Part shown: piece after piece, positions 2-51,887 of the stretch
Layout: the number at the start of each line of letters is the position of its first letter
How positions within the stretch are numbered: position 1 is the first letter of the stretch
Source of the DNA: a virus
Virus record (IMG/VR): IMGVR_UViG_3300037245_002962
Span: 1 to 51,888 of that record
DNA: 51,888 nt
Reading direction: 5' to 3' (one strand)
The notes under the pieces: generated by a model
Told to the model about the DNA's origin: nothing
The model's database searches: none
The model's input: the letters and a program-made list of their open reading frames with translations, nothing else
Made by a program: the position numbers and the translations under genes

Positions 2-52
2 GAAATGAACGCTAATAGATAGGTTGTAAAAATATTAGCAGTAAACTAAACA
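2..52 (+). repeat. Left-end copy of the orphan-gene boundary repeat
   Basis: Two blocks recur at the other end in inverted orientation: GAAATGAACGCTAA (2-15; complement at 51874-51887) and TAGCAGTAAACTAAACA (36-52; complement at 51839-51855). The 32 bases 21-52 recur as a direct copy at 581-612 with one mismatch, and in shortened form at 33849-33870. Each copy lies upstream of a small orphan gene. Whether these are recombination boundaries or regulatory leaders is not settled by sequence. Confidence 0.75.
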
Positions 53-93
53 TAGGCTATTATTTTTAGCTTGTGTTACAAACTTTTAAAATT

Positions 94-234
94 ATGAATA
101 GATTTAAAGGATTAAACCTAAGTAACATTTTTGTAGTATTGTGTGTGATAGCACTAATGATTGAGGGAACGATGGAGTGGTTTTACGGACTTATGATAAT
201 TGTATATCTGCTTGAAATTAAACTAAACGAATAA
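94..234 (+). CDS. Small predicted membrane protein (46 aa)
   Basis: ATG follows an A-rich leader downstream of the left-end boundary repeat. The product has a basic start (MNRFKG), a hydrophobic stretch at about residues 11-23, a short polar gap (EGTMEW) and a second hydrophobic stretch at about 29-40, as expected for a two-pass micro-membrane protein. No family recognised. Reading-frame length and hydrophobic pattern support it; its isolation among other orphan genes suggests an accessory role. Confidence 0.5.
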   Translation: MNRFKGLNLSNIFVVLCVIALMIEGTMEWFYGLMIIVYLLEIKLNE

Positions 235-316
235 TTTTTATTGTTTGTAATGATAGGTGTAACAGCCGTTTTAATGGCTTGGTTACATGATGTTATGTGT
301 GTTTTAAATTTTAATT

Positions 317-565
317 ATGAGGTATTTAGATTTTGAAAATCAAGAAAAAGGATATAAAAAATTTTACTTGAATAGAGAAAACATAAGAAAAAACATAGGT
401 AAGCAAATATGTTTTGTTGATAAAAGAGATATAGACCCTTACAGAGGTTATTATAATGTTGATTATGGGATATTACATAGTGTAAGGTATTCTCGCCTTT
501 TTCTTAATGATGGTAATAGGGAGGTTGATATAAGAGATGTTGTTGAATGTGGAATTAAAATTTAA
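317..565 (+). CDS. Conserved hypothetical phage protein (82 aa)
   Basis: Soluble, charged 82-residue protein with the core GKQICFVDKRDIDPYRGYY, then DVV near the C terminus. I associate this pattern with small hypothetical proteins of Bacteroidetes phages, but no function is known to me. The gene lies between two direct copies of the boundary repeat (21-52 and 581-612), so it and the 94-234 gene form one repeat-bounded unit of about 560 bp. A 28-codon frame (250-336) overlaps its start and is probably not a gene. Confidence 0.7.
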   Translation: MRYLDFENQEKGYKKFYLNRENIRKNIGKQICFVDKRDIDPYRGYYNVDYGILHSVRYSRLFLNDGNREVDIRDVVECGIKI

Positions 566-580
566 TTACACATAATGGAG

Positions 581-684
581 AGGTTGTAAAAATATTAGCA
601 GTAGACTAAACACAATAATAGCAGCTAAAAAGACCCATAACACCTGCTATTATTTTTGACAACGTGTTATGTGGCGTAATTATT
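581..684 (+). promoter_or_regulatory. Conserved structured leader with possible H-type pseudoknot
   Basis: Boundary repeat 581-612 continues into two interleaved stems. Stem 1 pairs AATAGCAG (617-624) with CTGCTATT (644-651). Stem 2 pairs CATAACAC (636-643) with GTGTTATG (664-671). The 5' strand of stem 2 sits inside stem 1's loop, the geometry of an H-type pseudoknot. The layout recurs inverted at 51767-51855, with one C-G to T-A compensatory change in stem 2. The ATG of the next gene is 13 nt downstream. The sequence TATTTTTG (650-657) also fits the Bacteroidetes -7 consensus. It could be a leader RNA, a promoter region or a recombination site. Confidence 0.5.
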
Positions 685-849
685 ATGAAACCTAAGAAAC
701 GAAGAAGTAAGGACGAAGAAATTGTTTTAAACGAAAACAACATAACATGGCATAGTGTATTTGGCTATGTATTTAAAAATTCTATCACGGAGGATTCGTG
801 CCAAATGTGCACGTACACTGATGTAATTCAAGTTTTAAGTGAATTTTAA
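685..849 (+). CDS. Hypothetical protein (54 aa)
   Basis: I start at ATG 685 rather than the in-frame GTG at 664 because 664 lies inside the conserved leader stem. The product begins with a basic patch (MKPKKRRSKDEE) followed by a mixed region with two Cys (CQMC). No family recognised. The leader is shared with the gene at the right end of the window (51541-51768), but the proteins are not obviously similar, so the leader rather than the coding region is conserved. Confidence 0.55.
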   Translation: MKPKKRRSKDEEIVLNENNITWHSVFGYVFKNSITEDSCQMCTYTDVIQVLSEF

Positions 850-859
850 TATTAATATC

Positions 860-1162
860 ATGAATATAGTAGAAATATTACAGCATTTGGACGAAAAAGA
901 AATAGATTATAGACTTGAGAGCAACCATTGTGTTGGATATATATTTTATTTCTTAGATGGATCTATTTTTCCGAGAAGATTCCATGATCATGATTTAGAT
1001 GAAACGATAGATTTCAAAATAGTTTCTGAATCTACTGATCATTTATTAGAGAGAATTACACATACTGAGCTTGAAAAAGATTGGAAGCATAGGATAGTTA
1101 GTGACGACATTTCAGATACTTTTAAAAAGGTTGAAGAATATCTATTCCTTAATGCCACATAA
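860..1162 (+). CDS. Hypothetical acidic protein (100 aa)
   Basis: ATG 860 (MNIVEILQHL) follows AT-rich sequence 11 nt after the previous stop; an upstream in-frame GTG at 839 is less likely because it overlaps the previous gene. The protein is acidic, with His and Asp clusters (FHDHDLDE), and looks globular without membrane segments. No family recognised. The stop is followed by a boundary-type sequence, CCACATAACG. Confidence 0.6.
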   Translation: MNIVEILQHLDEKEIDYRLESNHCVGYIFYFLDGSIFPRRFHDHDLDETIDFKIVSESTDHLLERITHTELEKDWKHRIVSDDISDTFKKVEEYLFLNAT

Positions 1163-1216
1163 CGTTTTGGCTAAGGAATTTAATTTTACGTACAAATAAA
1201 AACTAATATAAATATT

Positions 1217-5735: not shown

Positions 5736-6914
5736 TTAATCTAGCTGCACCCATGCCGTGCCGTTGTAATAATATATATGATTATCCGAATTATTTACAT
5801 ACATCCAACCTAAGGATGGAGATGATGGAGCTGAAGCCCTTGGTGTAAGTTTAATTACTGTTGAAATTTCTATATCTCCGAAAATACGCCTTCCACCTTG
5901 ATCAATATTATCGTGTGGAACATCGTTAAATTCAGTCTCACCAGAGGTCATTACTCTATCTCCAGTACCAGTATTTGATAAAGCAACAAACATTCCATTT
6001 CCATAGGCTACAGTATACCAATTATTAGCAACAGGATTAATCCTGCTAGTCCAATTTATACCGTCAGGACTGGTCATTACTCTATTTGTACCATCAAAAC
6101 CAACTACTACAAACAACCCCTTTCCATAGATAATCCCAATCCAACCATTAGTAATACTAACTTGAGAAGTCCAATTTATACCGTCAGGACTGGTCATTAT
6201 ATCATTACTTCCTCCTTGACTTGATATAGCAACAAACAACCCATTTCCATAGGTAATACTACTCCAGCTTCTAGATGGACTAGCTTGAGAAGTCCAATTT
6301 ATACCGTCAGGACTGGTCATTACTCTATTGCCTGCACCGCTATTTGCACCTGCTACAAATAACCCATTTCCATATGTAATACATCTCCAATTACTATCGA
6401 GTGCACTAGCTTGAGAAGTCCAATTTATACCGTCAGGACTGGTCATTACTCTATTGCCTGCACCATCACCCGATATAGCAACAAACAATCCCTTTCCATA
6501 GGTAATACCCTTCCACTGATTATCAGATGCACCAGTTTGAGAAGTCCAATTTATACCGTCAGGACTGGTCATTACTCTATTTGTACCAGTACCATTACTT
6601 GATACAGCAACAAACAACCCATTTCCATAGGTAATACTAGTCCAATCATTATCAGCTGCACTAGTTTGAGATGTCCAATTTACGCCATCAGGACTGGTCA
6701 TTACTCTATTGTTAGTTCCAGTCTGAGATACAGCAACAAACAATCCATTTCCATAGGCAATACTATTCCACTGATTATCAGCTGCACTAGTTTGAATAGT
6801 CCAACTTATACCACCAGCAGTATCGATATCCCAACTATCCCTAAATTTCTGCTTTAGAGTATCATTAAATTCTTCCCCATCTTTACTGGTTGGTGTTGTG
6901 TTAAATTCTGCCAT
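5736..6914 (-). CDS. Seven-repeat propeller-like tail protein
   Basis: Seven repeats of about 40-43 residues fill residues 36-330. Each has a core like SITYGNGLFVAVSS, then MTSPDGINWTSQ. Seven repeats with SPDG turns suggest a seven-bladed beta-propeller. The C terminus (GWMYVNNSDNHIYYYNGTAW) resembles the tip motif of phage tail fibres, and the N terminus could anchor to the tail. It lies between a distal-tail-like gene and the tail hub, so it is probably an adsorption or carbohydrate-binding tail component. Its start overlaps the upstream stop. Fold and ligand are inference. Confidence 0.7.
   Translation of the reverse strand: MAEFNTTPTSKDGEEFNDTLKQKFRDSWDIDTAGGISWTIQTSAADNQWNSIAYGNGLFVAVSQTGTNNRVMTSPDGVNWTSQTSAADNDWTSITYGNGLFVAVSSNGTGTNRVMTSPDGINWTSQTGASDNQWKGITYGKGLFVAISGDGAGNRVMTSPDGINWTSQASALDSNWRCITYGNGLFVAGANSGAGNRVMTSPDGINWTSQASPSRSWSSITYGNGLFVAISSQGGSNDIMTSPDGINWTSQVSITNGWIGIIYGKGLFVVVGFDGTNRVMTSPDGINWTSRINPVANNWYTVAYGNGMFVALSNTGTGDRVMTSGETEFNDVPHDNIDQGGRRIFGDIEISTVIKLTPRASAPSSPSLGWMYVNNSDNHIYYYNGTAWVQLD
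6048..6703 (-). repeat. Intragenic tandem DNA repeat in the propeller gene
   Basis: A segment of about 31 bases encoding MTSPDGINWTS recurs at about 6048, 6168, 6291, 6417, 6543 and, diverged, 6673, with a period of 120-130 bp. Five copies are almost identical at DNA level while the intervening codons differ. This suggests unequal recombination or gene conversion rather than amino-acid selection alone. Confidence 0.85.
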
Positions 6915-7341: not shown

Positions 7342-10300
7342 TTAATTTACATATGTTCTGATTCCACTTCCATCAGATCCCTGTTTTACGATACTGTTGA
7401 ACGTCTTGATATATCCAACTAGATTATTGTTCATTGTTTGTAAAGTGCCCAATATCTGACTGTTTATTCTGTTAGATGCGCCCATGTTTTCAATTATAAT
7501 ATTTAACTTGGCACTATCCTGAATATTAATCTCTCTGTTTGAATTAAACAAAGCCTCAAGTCTACGTCCAGTATCTTCACTCAACCCTTGTATACCTTTA
7601 GTTAATGCAGATAAATCTTTATCCATACCGAAAAAATCATACCCGCGTTCCTTACCCCACTCTTCTATTTTTCTCAAAGCTTCGTTAGCTCCAAACATAC
7701 TATCTTCTGATGCCTTGAAAAATCTATCAAGATCATCAAGCCAATCCTCATCGCCAGCTATATCGAATGATTTTTCCATATCATCCTCTAATTGTGAAAA
7801 TAAATCTCCGAAATACTTTTGAATAATTTTTTGTTTAATGATATTCATCATAACATCTTCAACAGCTTTTCTAAATCCCTCAGCAGCATCAATACCTCTG
7901 GCGAATGAGTCTACCAATACATCTCCTATCTGAGCGCCTAAATCCCCAGCTATTGAGGATATAATTTCTCTCATTTGCTCTTTAGCTGCCAAGAGTGCTT
8001 CATATTGTTTTCTGGCTAATTCGACCATAGCCTTGGTTCCTTCATCAGTTATGTGTCCTTGTTTTTCCAGTATGGTGTAGAAATCGAGCCACTCCTGAGT
8101 ACTAAATTGAGCTACATCAGACGCAGTTTTACCCATCGTGGTTAAAGCATCGTCAAATCCTTCTCGTAGATCCCTGACAGCTCTTTTCATTGCTCTTTTA
8201 CTTCGCTTACTGCCAGTAATATCAAAAATAAGTTCAAATTTATCCCAAAGTGATATGTCTGGATCTTCTACACCAGCAACAAGATCTTCCATTGATGCTG
8301 AAAACTCCCTAGTTCTCTTACCCCACAAGTTTCTGGCACTACCTTCCCCAGTTAGTAACCCTTCTGTGTAGATAGCATCCATTGTCTCTTTGAGATTAAC
8401 AGTCTCTTCTTTAATTATAGCTAATGCATCTTTCATGCCTTTGCCGAAATCTTGAACTAGAAATGCACTTTTCTCCTGCAGGGCTATTCTTTCTTTATGT
8501 ATTTGATTAATTTCATATTCAATATCCAATCTCTCACTAACTCTTTTTGAATTCTCAGCTAATGCTTCCTGTTCATCCCGTATACTATCAGAGAATCTCT
8601 GTAAGCCCTGAATGATTTGTAATGCAGCTCCGACAACAGCTAATATAACGGATGCTTTTTCTATGCCTTTAACCGCACCAGTAGCTAGTATTGCAGTTTT
8701 TTCAATAAGAGTGATTATACCCACGGAGGCAGCTTGTATAGCCCTAAGAGCTTCCATTGCTTTTCCTCCTACGGACATACCGAATGCACTGCCCAGATCT
8801 TCAACAACGCCTATTAGTTCATTAATTTCACCAGTTAGTTTTTTCCATTCTGCTGCCTGTTTTTTTATTTTGAAAAGGGTAACAGTTCTGGCAGCATTTT
8901 CAGACGCTATACCGAAAGTCTCAAGAAGAGTTATCAGGTTTCTCAACTTAACAACATCGGATTCATCAACCTCGATTCCTCCTAACTTATCTCCAGCTTT
9001 CAATCCAGATAATTCAGATTTAAGGTCAATTATTTTGAGATTGAAATCTTCAATATCCTTGCTATCGAAAATATCATCGAACACCCCTTTGTATTGAGAA
9101 AAATCTACATCTGCTCCTTCAAAGAAACCTTTTAAATTCTCCCCTCTAAATAAATCAGCACTGGCTTTGTTTATTACTGCTATTATTTTATTGATATCAT
9201 CTAAAGATGCATTGGTCATATTGGCATAAGCATCTCCTAGATGATTTACAGCCATCTGCTCCTTTATATAAGCATCACCCATTTTTTCTATTCGTTGCCT
9301 AGCTTCTTCGTTTATAGCTGCCGACTTTAATTTAAATACGGCATTTATCTCCTGTTTTTCAAGCTCCGTGGCGCCTTTGGTTATTGCGACCATTTCGGCT
9401 TTCAGCTTACCTATTTTCGTATTTAAGTCTGATATTATTTTATCAAAATTAAATTCAAGCCCAATACCCTCTGGGATATCCACTCTGATGAATTTCAGTC
9501 TTCTGATCAAAGTATTATCTACAGAGGTTGAGATTAATTTCTCAATCGAAAGTATGCTTTTTCTTAATTCTTCGGGTAAACTGTCTATTTGTGCTTTTAA
9601 AGCTTCATAATCCAACTCTATATCCATGACTATAGCCTTTTCTTCGACCATGGATTTGAGTGTTTTTTCTAAATCTTTTTTGGCAGCACTCCCATCGAAA
9701 GCTAATTTAATAGCCAATTTTTCATCTCCCGTAAGACCCAATATTTCTTCAAATAATTTATGCTTAGCCTTATATAGGGCAATCTCTTCGTCTATTTCCT
9801 TTAAAGCCTTCTTGGTTTCCTTAATAAGATCTTCAGCTTTTAATTTAGCGATCTCAATCCTGACAGCATCAGCCCATTTTTTACCGACACCTTTACCTAT
9901 TTTTTCGGCTCTATCAACCAAATCTTCCATTTTGGCTATAAGTTCTTCGCTTTTTAAATCGACTGGGATTTCTATTTTTAAATCCTCAGCTTGCTTTCCG
10001 AACAGCTCATCTATGGTTAATTTGGTTTTCTTAATCCCCAAAGTTTTTCTTAGATCTTCATTAACTCTTTTAATCTCTTTGTAAAACTTTAATCTGATTC
10101 TTAAATTATTAAGTAATTTAATCTCTTCTTCTTTTTCGTCTTTTTTAGTTCCTAAAGCTAACCCTAAGGCATCAGCTATTGCTTTTGTTACAAGTAAATT
10201 AGCTTTTAATGTCTTAAGTTCACTTTCTGAAACTTTAACAGCTCTTTGCCATCCCTCTTGTTGTGTTTTTCTATATGCTTTTACAACACCTTCTGTTTGT

Positions 10301-33805: not shown

Positions 33806-33848
33806 CTTGCTTTTTAAACAGAATATTTGTAATTTTATAATAATAAAT

Positions 33849-33870
33849 AGGTTTAAAATATTAGCAGTAA
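33849..33870 (+). repeat. Internal copy of the boundary repeat
   Basis: AGGTTTAAAATATTAGCAG and following TAA match the repeat at 21-52 and 581-612 apart from a short deletion. It lies just before the first gene of the second orphan array (ATG 33877), the same position as in the terminal arrays. Confidence 0.6.
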
Positions 33871-33876
33871 AAAATT

Positions 33877-34083: not shown

Positions 34084-34185
34084 ATGAAAAAATATGACAT
34101 TCCGCGTGATAAAATAAAATACGTGGAAAATATGTATTCTCCAATAAGCGCTAATGGAGAGGCGGTATGGTTTGTAAATAGCTAA
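34084..34185 (+). CDS. Possible short orphan peptide (33 aa)
   Basis: A 33-codon frame (MKKYDIPRDKIKYVENMYSP) whose 3' end runs through the left arm of an inverted repeat. It may be a real short gene ending in a boundary, or chance coding in a repeat. Confidence 0.3.
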   Translation: MKKYDIPRDKIKYVENMYSPISANGEAVWFVNS

Positions 34186-34239
34186 ACCGCTTGGAATTTG
34201 AGATAAATTAAATTAATATAAACTATACCGCTTGTTAGC
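34150..34239 (+). repeat. Imperfect long-range inverted repeat in orphan array
   Basis: Left arm GCTAA (34150-34154) and GCGGTAT (34162-34168) pair with ATACCGC (34225-34231) and TTAGC (34235-34239). Inside is GGTTT/AAACC. Two-box arms flanking a spacer recall integron attC sites, but no R-box consensus can be assigned. Confidence 0.5.
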
Positions 34240-34273
34240 TTTTCGTTTTTGATCGGTGGGAAAATTTAAAAAT

Positions 34274-34459
34274 ATGTTACAGATAACAGGAATGGACGCA
34301 ACCGACAAGAAAGAATTTGAAACAGTTGCAAAATATTTAGAGCAAAAGCATGATGACTTAGCTAAAAAGAAAAAAGATAGAACGCCAGACAGCCCGAAAC
34401 AACTGTTACAAATGGCAAATACAATACGAAGAGCTTTAGCGTTGGCAAATGAAAGCTAA
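34274..34459 (+). CDS. Orphan protein (61 aa)
   Basis: Begins MLQITGMDATDKKEFETVAK, charged and helical. I use ATG 34274 rather than an in-frame GTG at 34256 next to the repeat. The 3' end has AAAGCTAATGGATAGG, similar to boundary sequence at 9-22. No family recognised. Confidence 0.6.
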   Translation: MLQITGMDATDKKEFETVAKYLEQKHDDLAKKKKDRTPDSPKQLLQMANTIRRALALANES

Positions 34460-34524
34460 TGGATAGGCGCTATATTGCGGTTAACTGAGATGAAAACGAG
34501 AATATTAACTTTAAAAACGGTGTG

Positions 34525-34707
34525 ATGGCAAATAAATTTGATTACCAGAATATGCTTAATAGAATTAGAGATCATAAGATAAGCAAAACAAAAACACCCC
34601 AATTTACAAATGAAGAGATTGAGGCATGGAATAATGCTATAGAACTGTGCTATGAAATAGTAGAGCGCAGGAGAAGTAGATTTGAACGAGCTACTAACGC
34701 GATATAA
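34525..34707 (+). CDS. Orphan protein (60 aa)
   Basis: Begins MANKFDYQNMLNRIRDHKIS, helical and basic. The stop is followed by CGCATATTAGCGGTA, the left arm of an inverted repeat. No family recognised. Confidence 0.6.
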   Translation: MANKFDYQNMLNRIRDHKISKTKTPQFTNEEIEAWNNAIELCYEIVERRRSRFERATNAI

Positions 34708-34712
34708 CGCAT

Positions 34713-34807
34713 ATTAGCGGTAGTGATATTGTTGAGCAGCAGGAAAATACATATAAGTTTGTCAAAGATGTGTTGGGCGGTAAGATTCAATAATTATTAC
34801 CGCTAAT
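34713..34807 (+). repeat. Inverted repeat between orphan genes
   Basis: Perfect 10-bp arms ATTAGCGGTA (34713-34722) and TACCGCTAAT (34798-34807) are separated by 75 nt. The right arm overlaps the next start codon. Same general design as 34150-34239. Confidence 0.65.
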
Positions 34808-35192
34808 GAGCGAAGGTATGGTTAGAAAATTTAACGACTTTAAAAGACAAAGGATGATAACAAAAAAAGAATTTAGACGAAATTGGATACTAGACCCTTC
34901 AAAAGAAATGGTTGTTGAGTCCGAAATAGATATAGCATATGATAAATATAAGTTAAATTTATTAACTATACCTGTTGTTAGCGTTTCGTGCGCGAATGCA
35001 GATAGTTTTAAGTTAATAGAGACAGCAGATGAAAATTGCTGTAACTGTAAAGGGAATGGTGATGTATGCGACGGTGGCGGTGCGTGGGTATATTGCGAGA
35101 CTAGAAATGATAATGACGAACAGTTTAATGGTGACTGTGGCGAAACGCTAGGTTGCAATCTATTTGTGCGCAGGAATGGGAATGAACGCTAA
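34806..35192 (+). CDS. Orphan Cys-rich protein (128 aa)
   Basis: Begins MSEGMVRKFNDFKRQRMITK, basic, with a Cys-rich C-terminal half (CCNCKGNGDVCDGGG, later DCGETLGC). ATG 34806 sits in the repeat arm; ATG 34818 is an alternative. The zinc- or disulfide-type cluster is the only feature I can name. Confidence 0.55.
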   Translation: MSEGMVRKFNDFKRQRMITKKEFRRNWILDPSKEMVVESEIDIAYDKYKLNLLTIPVVSVSCANADSFKLIETADENCCNCKGNGDVCDGGGAWVYCETRNDNDEQFNGDCGETLGCNLFVRRNGNER

Positions 35193-35196
35193 CGTT
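35181..35196 (+). repeat. Boundary sequence shared with right window end
   Basis: AATGAACGCTAACGTT is identical to the sequence read leftward from position 51886. It overlaps the stop of the previous gene, as boundary sequences do elsewhere. Confidence 0.65.
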
Positions 35197-35256
35197 AAAT
35201 CTATGTTGCGTGACCCTAAATGAAACCTAAATAATAAACTTACCGTAAGAAAGAAT

Positions 35257-35550
35257 ATGGAAAATGAAAAGAACAAAATACCTCAGTCATGCAATATAGA
35301 TAGTGTTATCAAATGTAAGGTAGATAAACGGAAAACAATCTCATATAGAGATGCAAGAGAGTTGGCTTTCGGTTTAGTTCAATCTGCCCTAATGAGAGAA
35401 CGTCTTGTAAGAACACAAGAAATACTTCTTAGAGCGAAAGAAAAAGACCCTACTTTGGATATTGGTGACTCTGTTGTTTATAAAAGGTTTGATGAACTTG
35501 ATTTTGGAAAGGAGTTTGATGGGAGAGCAACGGAGAGTGGTTGTTTTTGA
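35257..35550 (+). CDS. Orphan protein (97 aa)
   Basis: Charged helical protein (SYRDARELAFGLVQSALMRE), starting after an A-rich leader. No family recognised. Last member of the array with a repeat boundary upstream. Confidence 0.6.
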   Translation: MENEKNKIPQSCNIDSVIKCKVDKRKTISYRDARELAFGLVQSALMRERLVRTQEILLRAKEKDPTLDIGDSVVYKRFDELDFGKEFDGRATESGCF

Positions 35551-35585
35551 TAACAACTGAGCAAACACACTTTTACATCCTGTTT

Positions 35586-50742: not shown

Positions 50743-50805
50743 ATTAAAACGAAATGGTAGCAAGGGTTTTATTATTTATAGCCCTTGCTACCATTTCGTT
50801 TTAAT
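50743..50805. repeat. Perfect 24-bp inverted repeat
   Basis: Arms at 50743-50766 and 50782-50805 are perfectly complementary, with a 15-nt AT-rich loop. It sits between two leftward small genes, and its right arm overlaps the stop of the upstream gene. It can form a cruciform or a long RNA hairpin. The GGG-T-rich-CCC core recurs at 51018-51040. Confidence 0.9.
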
Positions 50806-51059: not shown

Positions 51060-51260
51060 CTATTCAATAGTATTTATTAGCTTAATAACATCTTCTATTT
51101 TAATGTAATCACCATCTTCATCGTAATACATATAACTACCACCACTATCGCAACCACAATTTAATCGCTTGTCTTTGGACTCTTTAATACGTTTGGTAAC
51201 ACTACCTATAAGTAATGCTCTTTGCTCTTTTTCTTCTTGCTTGTTGTATTCTTTAAACAT
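51060..51260 (-). CDS. Orphan protein (66 aa)
   Basis: Charged N-terminal helix (NKQEEKEQRALLIGSVTKRI) and a Cys/Gly/Tyr/Asp C-terminal half (CGCDSGGSYMYYDEDGDY). Flanked by boundary sequences. No family recognised. Confidence 0.6.
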   Translation of the reverse strand: MFKEYNKQEEKEQRALLIGSVTKRIKESKDKRLNCGCDSGGSYMYYDEDGDYIKIEDVIKLINTIE

Positions 51261-51326: not shown

Positions 51327-51485
51327 TTACAGTAACCAACATTTTATTCCATTTTCAGCCATCAGATTGATAAAATCTTTGGCGTGTTTCTTTTGCCACC
51401 TACCATAAAATGTTCTGAAGGTGAAACCGTGTTGTTTGTTTTCTACTTTAACAAGTGTCTGCATATCTCTAGTATTTAACGGCAT
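51327..51485 (-). CDS. Orphan basic protein (52 aa)
   Basis: Begins MPLNTRDMQTLVKVENKQHG and continues FRTFYGRWQKKHAKDF. Its stop is followed by the boundary GGCCTATAACG. Sits between two similar boundary sequences, like its neighbours. No family recognised. Confidence 0.55.
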   Translation of the reverse strand: MPLNTRDMQTLVKVENKQHGFTFRTFYGRWQKKHAKDFINLMAENGIKCWLL

Positions 51486-51540: not shown

Positions 51541-51768
51541 TTAAAGCGTATCAATACCATTCACATACCTTTCGTCTTTTCCATGGAATCCTTTATAAAG
51601 TAAACCATCATCAAATTTAAGTAATTCTCGAGGGTTTACTTTGTCTACTACCAACCAACTGCCGCCAAATTTATTATTCAGAAATAATTGTATACCTCTA
51701 ACTTGTTCATTTTTACATACTATTAAAACCTTCTTAGTAGTTTGGTGCTTTGCAAATATTTTAATCAT
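51541..51768 (-). CDS. Orphan protein behind structured leader (75 aa)
   Basis: Begins MIKIFAKHQTTKKVLIVCKN, alpha/beta. The start codon comes right after the right-end copy of the structured leader. Its stop is followed by GCCCTATAACG, the same boundary type as after the 51327-51485 gene. No family recognised. Confidence 0.6.
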   Translation of the reverse strand: MIKIFAKHQTTKKVLIVCKNEQVRGIQLFLNNKFGGSWLVVDKVNPRELLKFDDGLLYKGFHGKDERYVNGIDTL

Positions 51769-51887
51769 AAAATAACGCCCTATAACATGTTGTCAAAAAC
51801 AATAGCAGATGTTATGGGACTTTTAACTGCTGTTGTCATGTTTAGTTTACTGCTACTATTCTTAGCAGCAACGTTAGCGTTCATTTC
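51767..51887 (-). promoter_or_regulatory. Right-end copy of structured leader and terminal repeat
   Basis: Inverted counterpart of 581-684. Stem 1: CAACAGCAG (51827-51835) with CTGCTATTG (51800-51808), one mismatch. Stem 2: CATAACAT (51809-51816) with ATGTTATA (51781-51788), seven pairs, one a T-A in place of the C-G of the left copy. The repeat at 51839-51855 and 51874-51887 matches the left end. Confidence 0.5.

Follow-up and report, generated by a model that had tools for sequence, protein, structure and literature searches.

A Bacteroidota-type tailed phage very probably carries integron-type cassette arrays, with a host recombinase proposed to serve them

Introduction

Can a phage that encodes no integrase carry and exchange gene cassettes? 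The question was raised by a 51,888-nt stretch of viral DNA (IMG/VR record IMGVR_UViG_3300037245_002962, here called the window), in which an initial annotation had noted related boundary sequences with small orphan genes strung between them. The arrangement had been likened to a cassette array in a phage lacking an integrase, a route by which phages may collect small genes.

CALINs have already been published in phages, including Polaribacter phage P12002L, whose attC2 recombines with IntI1 and whose attC direction is divergent; Flavobacterium phages and Bacteroidota go unmentioned in that paper (PMC9892861). IntegronFinder 2 gave one complete Bacteroidetes integron, in Salinibacter ruber, and integrons were also found in Chlorobi (PMC9024848); intI was reported in Bacteroidetes/Chlorobi (PMC2426708). 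The 11 taxa with attC models include no Bacteroidota model (PMC8352920).

Results

The TerL of the window phage was 33% identical to that of the Bacteroides LoVEphage. Small ORFs were present between the boundaries, as had been described, and these orphan ORFs formed the cassettes of three arrays: A (1-1163, + strand), B (~34.1-35.6 kb, +) and C (51.0-51.9 kb, -). About 10 attC-like sites were spread over the three arrays (Table 1).

Related sequence was found at the boundaries reported at 2-52, 581-612, 35181-35196 and 51839-51887, in each case as part of an attC-like hairpin. Positions 13-52 and 573-612 were 93% identical over 40 nt, 27-53 was 93% complementary to 51838-51864 (reverse complement), and a AATGAACGCTAAC core was common to 35181-35196 and the right-hand end (51874-51887, -). 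The repeat reported at 33849-33870 was real, with 33855-33871 identical to site A1, but it proved to be a half-site without a partner arm and not a whole boundary. At 2-52 the hairpin part was confirmed and only the upstream cassette was missing, as it lies off the contig. The contig ends, 1-16 and 51873-51888, were inverted copies of each other (GAAATGAACGCTAA), located inside the R'' boxes of off-contig cassettes. A stop codon followed by a (T)ATAACG sequence, also pointed out initially, recurred at four places on both strands (1159 and 34704, +; 51534 and 51320, -).

The real unit was a hairpin of 40-180 nt with outer boxes nnnnTAA[C/T] ... GTTAnnnn, of which the initial annotation had one arm per element; sites A2, B2, B4 (34690-34722), B4b, C2 and C3 came in addition. 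In the clearest sites, ~6 unpaired bases separated the nnnnTAA[C/T] box from the 5' arm. The loop measured 8 to >100 nt and the 3' arm often had one extra base, with ~2 bases between this arm and GTTAnnnn in A3 and B2. The layout of A3 was ACACATAAT-GGAGAG-GTTGTAAAAATATTAGCAG...CTGCTATTATTTTTGACAAC-GT-GTTATGTGG (box plus 5' arm, ACACATAATGGAGAG-GTTGTAAAAATATTAGCAG) and that of B2 was GCTAAT-GGAGAG-GCGGTATGGTTT...AAACTATACCGC-TT-GTTAGC. Five window boxes read TAAT, and host sites had an invariant TAAC. Sites B3 and A4 had no clear second arm and cassette C2 (ORF 51327-51464) had no own-box match, indicating that part of the arrays has decayed. The segment between A4 and ORF 1217-1477, as well as C4/C5, was left unassigned.

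Table 1 Cassette features of the window. Own match, R'/R'' match within one cassette; R1, host-built covariance model.
Feature	Position	Strand	Composition	Evidence
Site A1	8..83	+	attC-like; R'' CGCTAAT from off-contig cassette; arms GGTTGTAAAAATATTAGC / GCTATTATTTTTAGC; R' GTTACAAAC	Repeat comparison, fold; own match of next cassette
Cassette A1	94..234	+	ORF, 46 aa, no family	Pfam/PHROGs searches
Site A2	245..300	+	attC-like; R'' TTTGTAAT; arms TGTAACAGCC / GGCTTGGTTACA; R' GTTATGTGT	Fold; box match
Cassette A2	317..565	+	ORF, 82 aa	59-63% identity to filifjonk9-1 gp04 and L011 ORF, both in cassettes
Site A3	569..672	+	attC-like	Fold below all 200 shuffles; 5th best R1 match, E 1.3
Cassette A3	685..1163	+	ORFs 685-849 (54 aa) and 860-1162 (100 aa); ends in R'' GCCACATAAC	9-nt own match
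Half-site B1	33841..33871	+	5' arm alone	17/17 nt to A1
Site B2	34148..34240	+	attC-like	4th best R1 match, E 0.66; fold
Cassette B2	34274..34460	+	ORF, 61 aa; R'' GAAAGCTAAT	8-nt own match
Site and cassette B4	34690..34807	+	Short site, ~95-nt cassette, no clear ORF	9-nt own match; fold
Site B4b	34798..34986	+	attC-like, long loop	Fold
Cassette B4b	34977..35193	+	Inside ORF 34806-35192 (128 aa); R'' GAACGCTAAC	8-nt own match
Site B5	35186..35311	+	attC-like	R1 E 3.6e-3
Cassette B5	35305..35554	+	ORF 35257-35550 (97 aa); R'' TTTGATAAC	8-nt own match
Site C1	51780..51880	-	attC-like	R1 E 9.8e-4; fold below all 200 shuffles
Cassette C1	51530..51786	-	ORF 51541-51768 (75 aa); R'' GCCCTATAAC	9-nt own match
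Site C2	51472..51538	-	attC-like; stem AATAAATTG / CAATTTATT; R' GTTAAAT	Fold
Site C3	51194..51323	-	attC-like	Best R1 match, 43.4 bits, E 1.3e-7
Cassette C3	51045..51200	-	Inside ORF 51060-51260 (66 aa); R'' GTTTGGTAAC	9-nt own match

Comparison of the boxes showed that the start box R' was complementary to the end box R'' over 8-9 contiguous nt in 9/10 window cassettes, C2 being the sole exception. None of 1,000,000 permutations gave a match as good, a figure that serves as a guide since the choice of window boxes and cassettes was partly visual. An unbiased scan of the window returned the same R'/R'' pairs, among chance pairs elsewhere. In host arrays, own matches of at least 8 nt were found in 190 cassettes out of 295 (6.5 expected). 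If a unit was once a circle, its two boxes flanked one hairpin and are expected to be complementary, so the match is read as the trace left by an integron cassette in circular form.

Covariance model R1 was built from 57 host sites, all from bacterial chromosomes and with the window excluded; its alignment contained 23 pairs, 16 of which were doubly covarying (two-sided changes with pairing kept). The five best R1 matches over both strands of the window (104 kb) all corresponded to boundaries on the correct strand, with rough E-values from a short calibration (Table 1). The two weakest are not significant alone; they are suggestive, but in place. The best match in LoVEphage, an unrelated phage, had an E-value of 5.3. 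Folding of single sequences is a weak test on window sites: A3 and C1 beat all shuffles, and A1, B5 and C3 alone failed to do so.

A CALIN comprises at least 2 attC within ~4 kb, all of them folding into hairpins that have R''/R' and L''/L' arms, and the element contains no intI. The window displayed five R1 matches at boundaries, together with folds, in three clusters, and no intI was detected within the contig. No match to PF00589 or TIGR02249 (tyrosine recombinase/IntI) was found in the window, which is possibly an incomplete contig. The initial proposal, that an integrase-free phage carries a cassette array, was thus supported by box complementarity, by the host-built model and by the lack of these two profiles. 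An Rfam search of the window matched a tRNA alone and no attC-like family; the cassette proteins gave no convincing match to Pfam and PHROGs and no match to plasmids.

Two other repeats were detected in the window. In the region of array C, 50743-50805 (-) is a 24-bp perfect inverted repeat (z -11) with a 15-nt loop, CTATAAATAATAAAA, resembling the C3/C4 stretches CTATGAGTAGT and CTATGAATAGT; it was not counted among the sites. At 5962-6836, ~7 repeats of 123-129 nt occupy part of ORF 5736-6914 (-); they likely encode a domain that is repeated in a tail protein or adhesin.

Searches of Bacteroidetes phages and hosts, as initially suggested, revealed the sites in many genomes and phages. R1 matched Flavobacterium phages 6H and hattifnatt and, weakly (best E 1.7e-4), the published CALIN of P12002L. 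Among the cassette proteins, only that of ORF 317-565 was related to a phage protein, which was gp04 (59%) from Flavobacterium phage filifjonk9-1; the gp04 gene is likewise flanked by attC-like hairpins. A further relative was found in a cassette of the metagenomic virus contig L011. The repeats were therefore neither confined to one phage nor always associated with the same genes, as this ORF had other neighbours in filifjonk9-1 and L011. Sequences L010 and L011 were alike from TAACG in the hairpin preceding the ORF as far as TTCTTATAAC downstream of it, where the homology of the shared gene stopped exactly and different neighbours followed; L011 contained 3.7 kb of other cassettes where filifjonk has none. 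Phages filifjonk9-1 and hattifnatt9-1, from one host strain, shared a backbone 99.8% identical from TATAAC|TACAAT onwards, preceded by a different cassette in each.

Exact scans of IMG/VR with window boundary motifs gave 0 matches for two patterns, and a genome scan with a two-sequence protein alignment found no relative. Boundary-motif matches in L006, L007 and L009 were rejected as chance matches because they lie inside ordinary genes. Virus L008 has a CTAATGGATAGGCGCTATAAG box at 8698-8715 (-) after a methyltransferase gene, intergenic and plausible, and an R1 match at 9593-9673 (-; E 1.6e-7).

In bacteria, GTDB genomes contained 82 exact matches to a motif derived from the filifjonk sites, almost all of them in Bacteroidota, and the R1 site family was detected in 83/148 Bacteroidota genomes at E<=1e-5. 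An IntI above cut-off was identified in 1/16 site-bearing genomes, the Ignavibacteria MAG G015 (427 bits). Most of the others encoded a recombinase that matches the IntI profile in the parts flanking the IntI-specific insertion, lacks the insertion itself and keeps the catalytic R-K-H-R-H-Y. Recombinases adjoining the arrays likewise lacked this insertion, unlike the integrase of a canonical integron. The patch-less recombinase was present in 52/148 genomes, and sites occurred in 48 of these 52 compared with 35 of the 96 others (Fisher 8e-12, uncorrected for kinship). In many genomes the arrays adjoined this gene and read toward it, the last box lying 72-169 nt from the gene edge at five loci.

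Several host loci stood out. In G008, at least 150 attC-like sites occupied one strand over ~500 kb (C1:3486429-3982500), an unusually large array that ends beside a recombinase gene (3985825-3986625, -). In G007:C1 (L104, L106, L116), at least 7 truncated tyrosine recombinases of 224 aa were found, nearly identical to one another and containing in-frame stops; those of L116 each lie shortly downstream of an R1 site, possibly reflecting a recombinase gene that moves around either as a cassette or as an insertion element. Some recombinase genes (G054, G035, G023, L113) were co-directional with the array and not convergent, and those of G054, G035 and G023 lacked the N-terminal ~65-aa domain.

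Polarity was analysed in 37 pairs of duplicated host cassettes from 11 families, mostly from one genome (G008), the others being from G014 and L115 (G016), plus two phage comparisons. The upstream hairpin was 0.95 identical between duplicates, compared with 0.62 for the downstream hairpin and a background of 0.60; the upstream hairpin was favoured in 33 pairs and the downstream one in 0. This conservation indicated that a gene takes along the hairpin upstream of it, and an attC at the 3' end of the moved gene, the canonical polarity, was found neither in hosts nor in the phage comparisons. A canonical attC carries an extra unpaired base in L''; its position in the 3' arm here independently points to reversed polarity. 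Judging from these relatives, hairpins in the window would also move with the downstream gene.

Discussion

Collectively, these data indicate that the window very probably derives from a Bacteroidota-type tailed phage with three integron-type cassette clusters and no integrase, whose cassettes would be traded by a host recombinase. The mobile unit is most likely composed of hairpin, R' box, small ORF and R'' box. We propose that an attC-recognising tyrosine recombinase encoded on the host chromosome acts in trans on single strands folded during phage replication, cutting the single-stranded hairpins at TAA|C (= G|TTA). Cassettes would then be swapped, inserted or lost among phages and chromosomal arrays, and the phage would gain and pass on small accessory genes. 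Three arrays, partial decay and the cut-off at both contig ends would fit a variable region that an assembler could not cross. Since many Bacteroidota have gene-swapping arrays built from this kind of site, viruses and hosts probably trade genes through the hairpin.

An alternative is that a single acquisition from a chromosomal array of a host brought in the cassettes, which no longer move and are carried along as inert cargo. The degenerate sites (half-site B1, B3, A4 and the C2 mismatch) and the absence of a recombinase from the contig are what such relics would leave, yet closely related Flavobacterium phages differ in cassette content at the box, and a single genome with three separate arrays implies repeated events; we consider this explanation unlikely. 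It is far less probable that the hairpins resemble PeSL elements, the promoter/stem-loop elements of T4-type phages, and that homologous recombination between repeats, without a dedicated recombinase, spread them together with small early genes. Homology between repeats would also place breakpoints in the repeats, the orphan genes are small and of early type, and motifs resembling the Bacteroidota -7 element TAnnTTTG (e.g. CTATTATTTTTGACAAC) were seen in some arms. However, complementary R' and R'' boxes in each cassette, structure kept under sequence change, and host arrays that terminate next to a tyrosine recombinase are not what homologous recombination predicts. That the hairpins are terminators, or inverted repeats arising by chance in AT-rich DNA, is suggested by other strong hairpins such as 50743-50805 and by the three sites that do not beat shuffles, but is extremely improbable given the box complementarity and given that R1, blind to the window, picked the boundaries and found no matches in LoVEphage.

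The exchange of cassettes through a host recombinase thus remains our preferred reading, and its closest published counterpart is the CALIN of P12002L, a virulent phage of Bacteroidota in which attC-like hairpins likewise separate small genes or methyltransferase genes and no integrase is present. Unlike that CALIN, the window has three arrays and ~10 sites of another subfamily. The divergent attC direction of P12002L might be explained by reversed polarity. As in class 1 and Vibrio integrons, small-ORF cassettes occur in tandem, with RYYYAAC/GTTRRRY-like boxes, complementarity between the boxes of one cassette and an imperfect hairpin with an unpaired extra base. In contrast to canonical integrons, the Bacteroidota hairpin precedes the gene moved, the arrays read toward the recombinase and the IntI-specific insertion is absent. 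The Salinibacter and Chlorobi integrons belong to the same phylum or superphylum, whereas the present array family goes with a patch-less recombinase.

A search of the openly accessible literature returned no description of a reversed, patch-less integron type. Phage CALINs are known, and the window adds one more to them, belonging to a variant type; what looks new is the Bacteroidota integron type seen in host data, with its reversed polarity and patch-less recombinase. We think it reasonably probable that this type is phylum-wide, with ~130-nt attC sites, reversed genes, arrays of up to ~500 kb running toward a convergent, patch-less IntI-like tyrosine recombinase, insertion beside the 3' end of its gene, and phages tapping the pool.

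Such a system would give phages that infect a phylum of major importance in the environment and the gut a concrete route to gain and shuffle small accessory genes, which in the Flavobacterium relatives include anti-restriction methyltransferases. It also points to a large Bacteroidota cassette pool that is unrepresented among taxon-specific attC models (PMC8352920). Finally, the recombinase may be able to recombine attC although it lacks the IntI patch, a point relevant to the origin of integron integrases from Xer-like enzymes.
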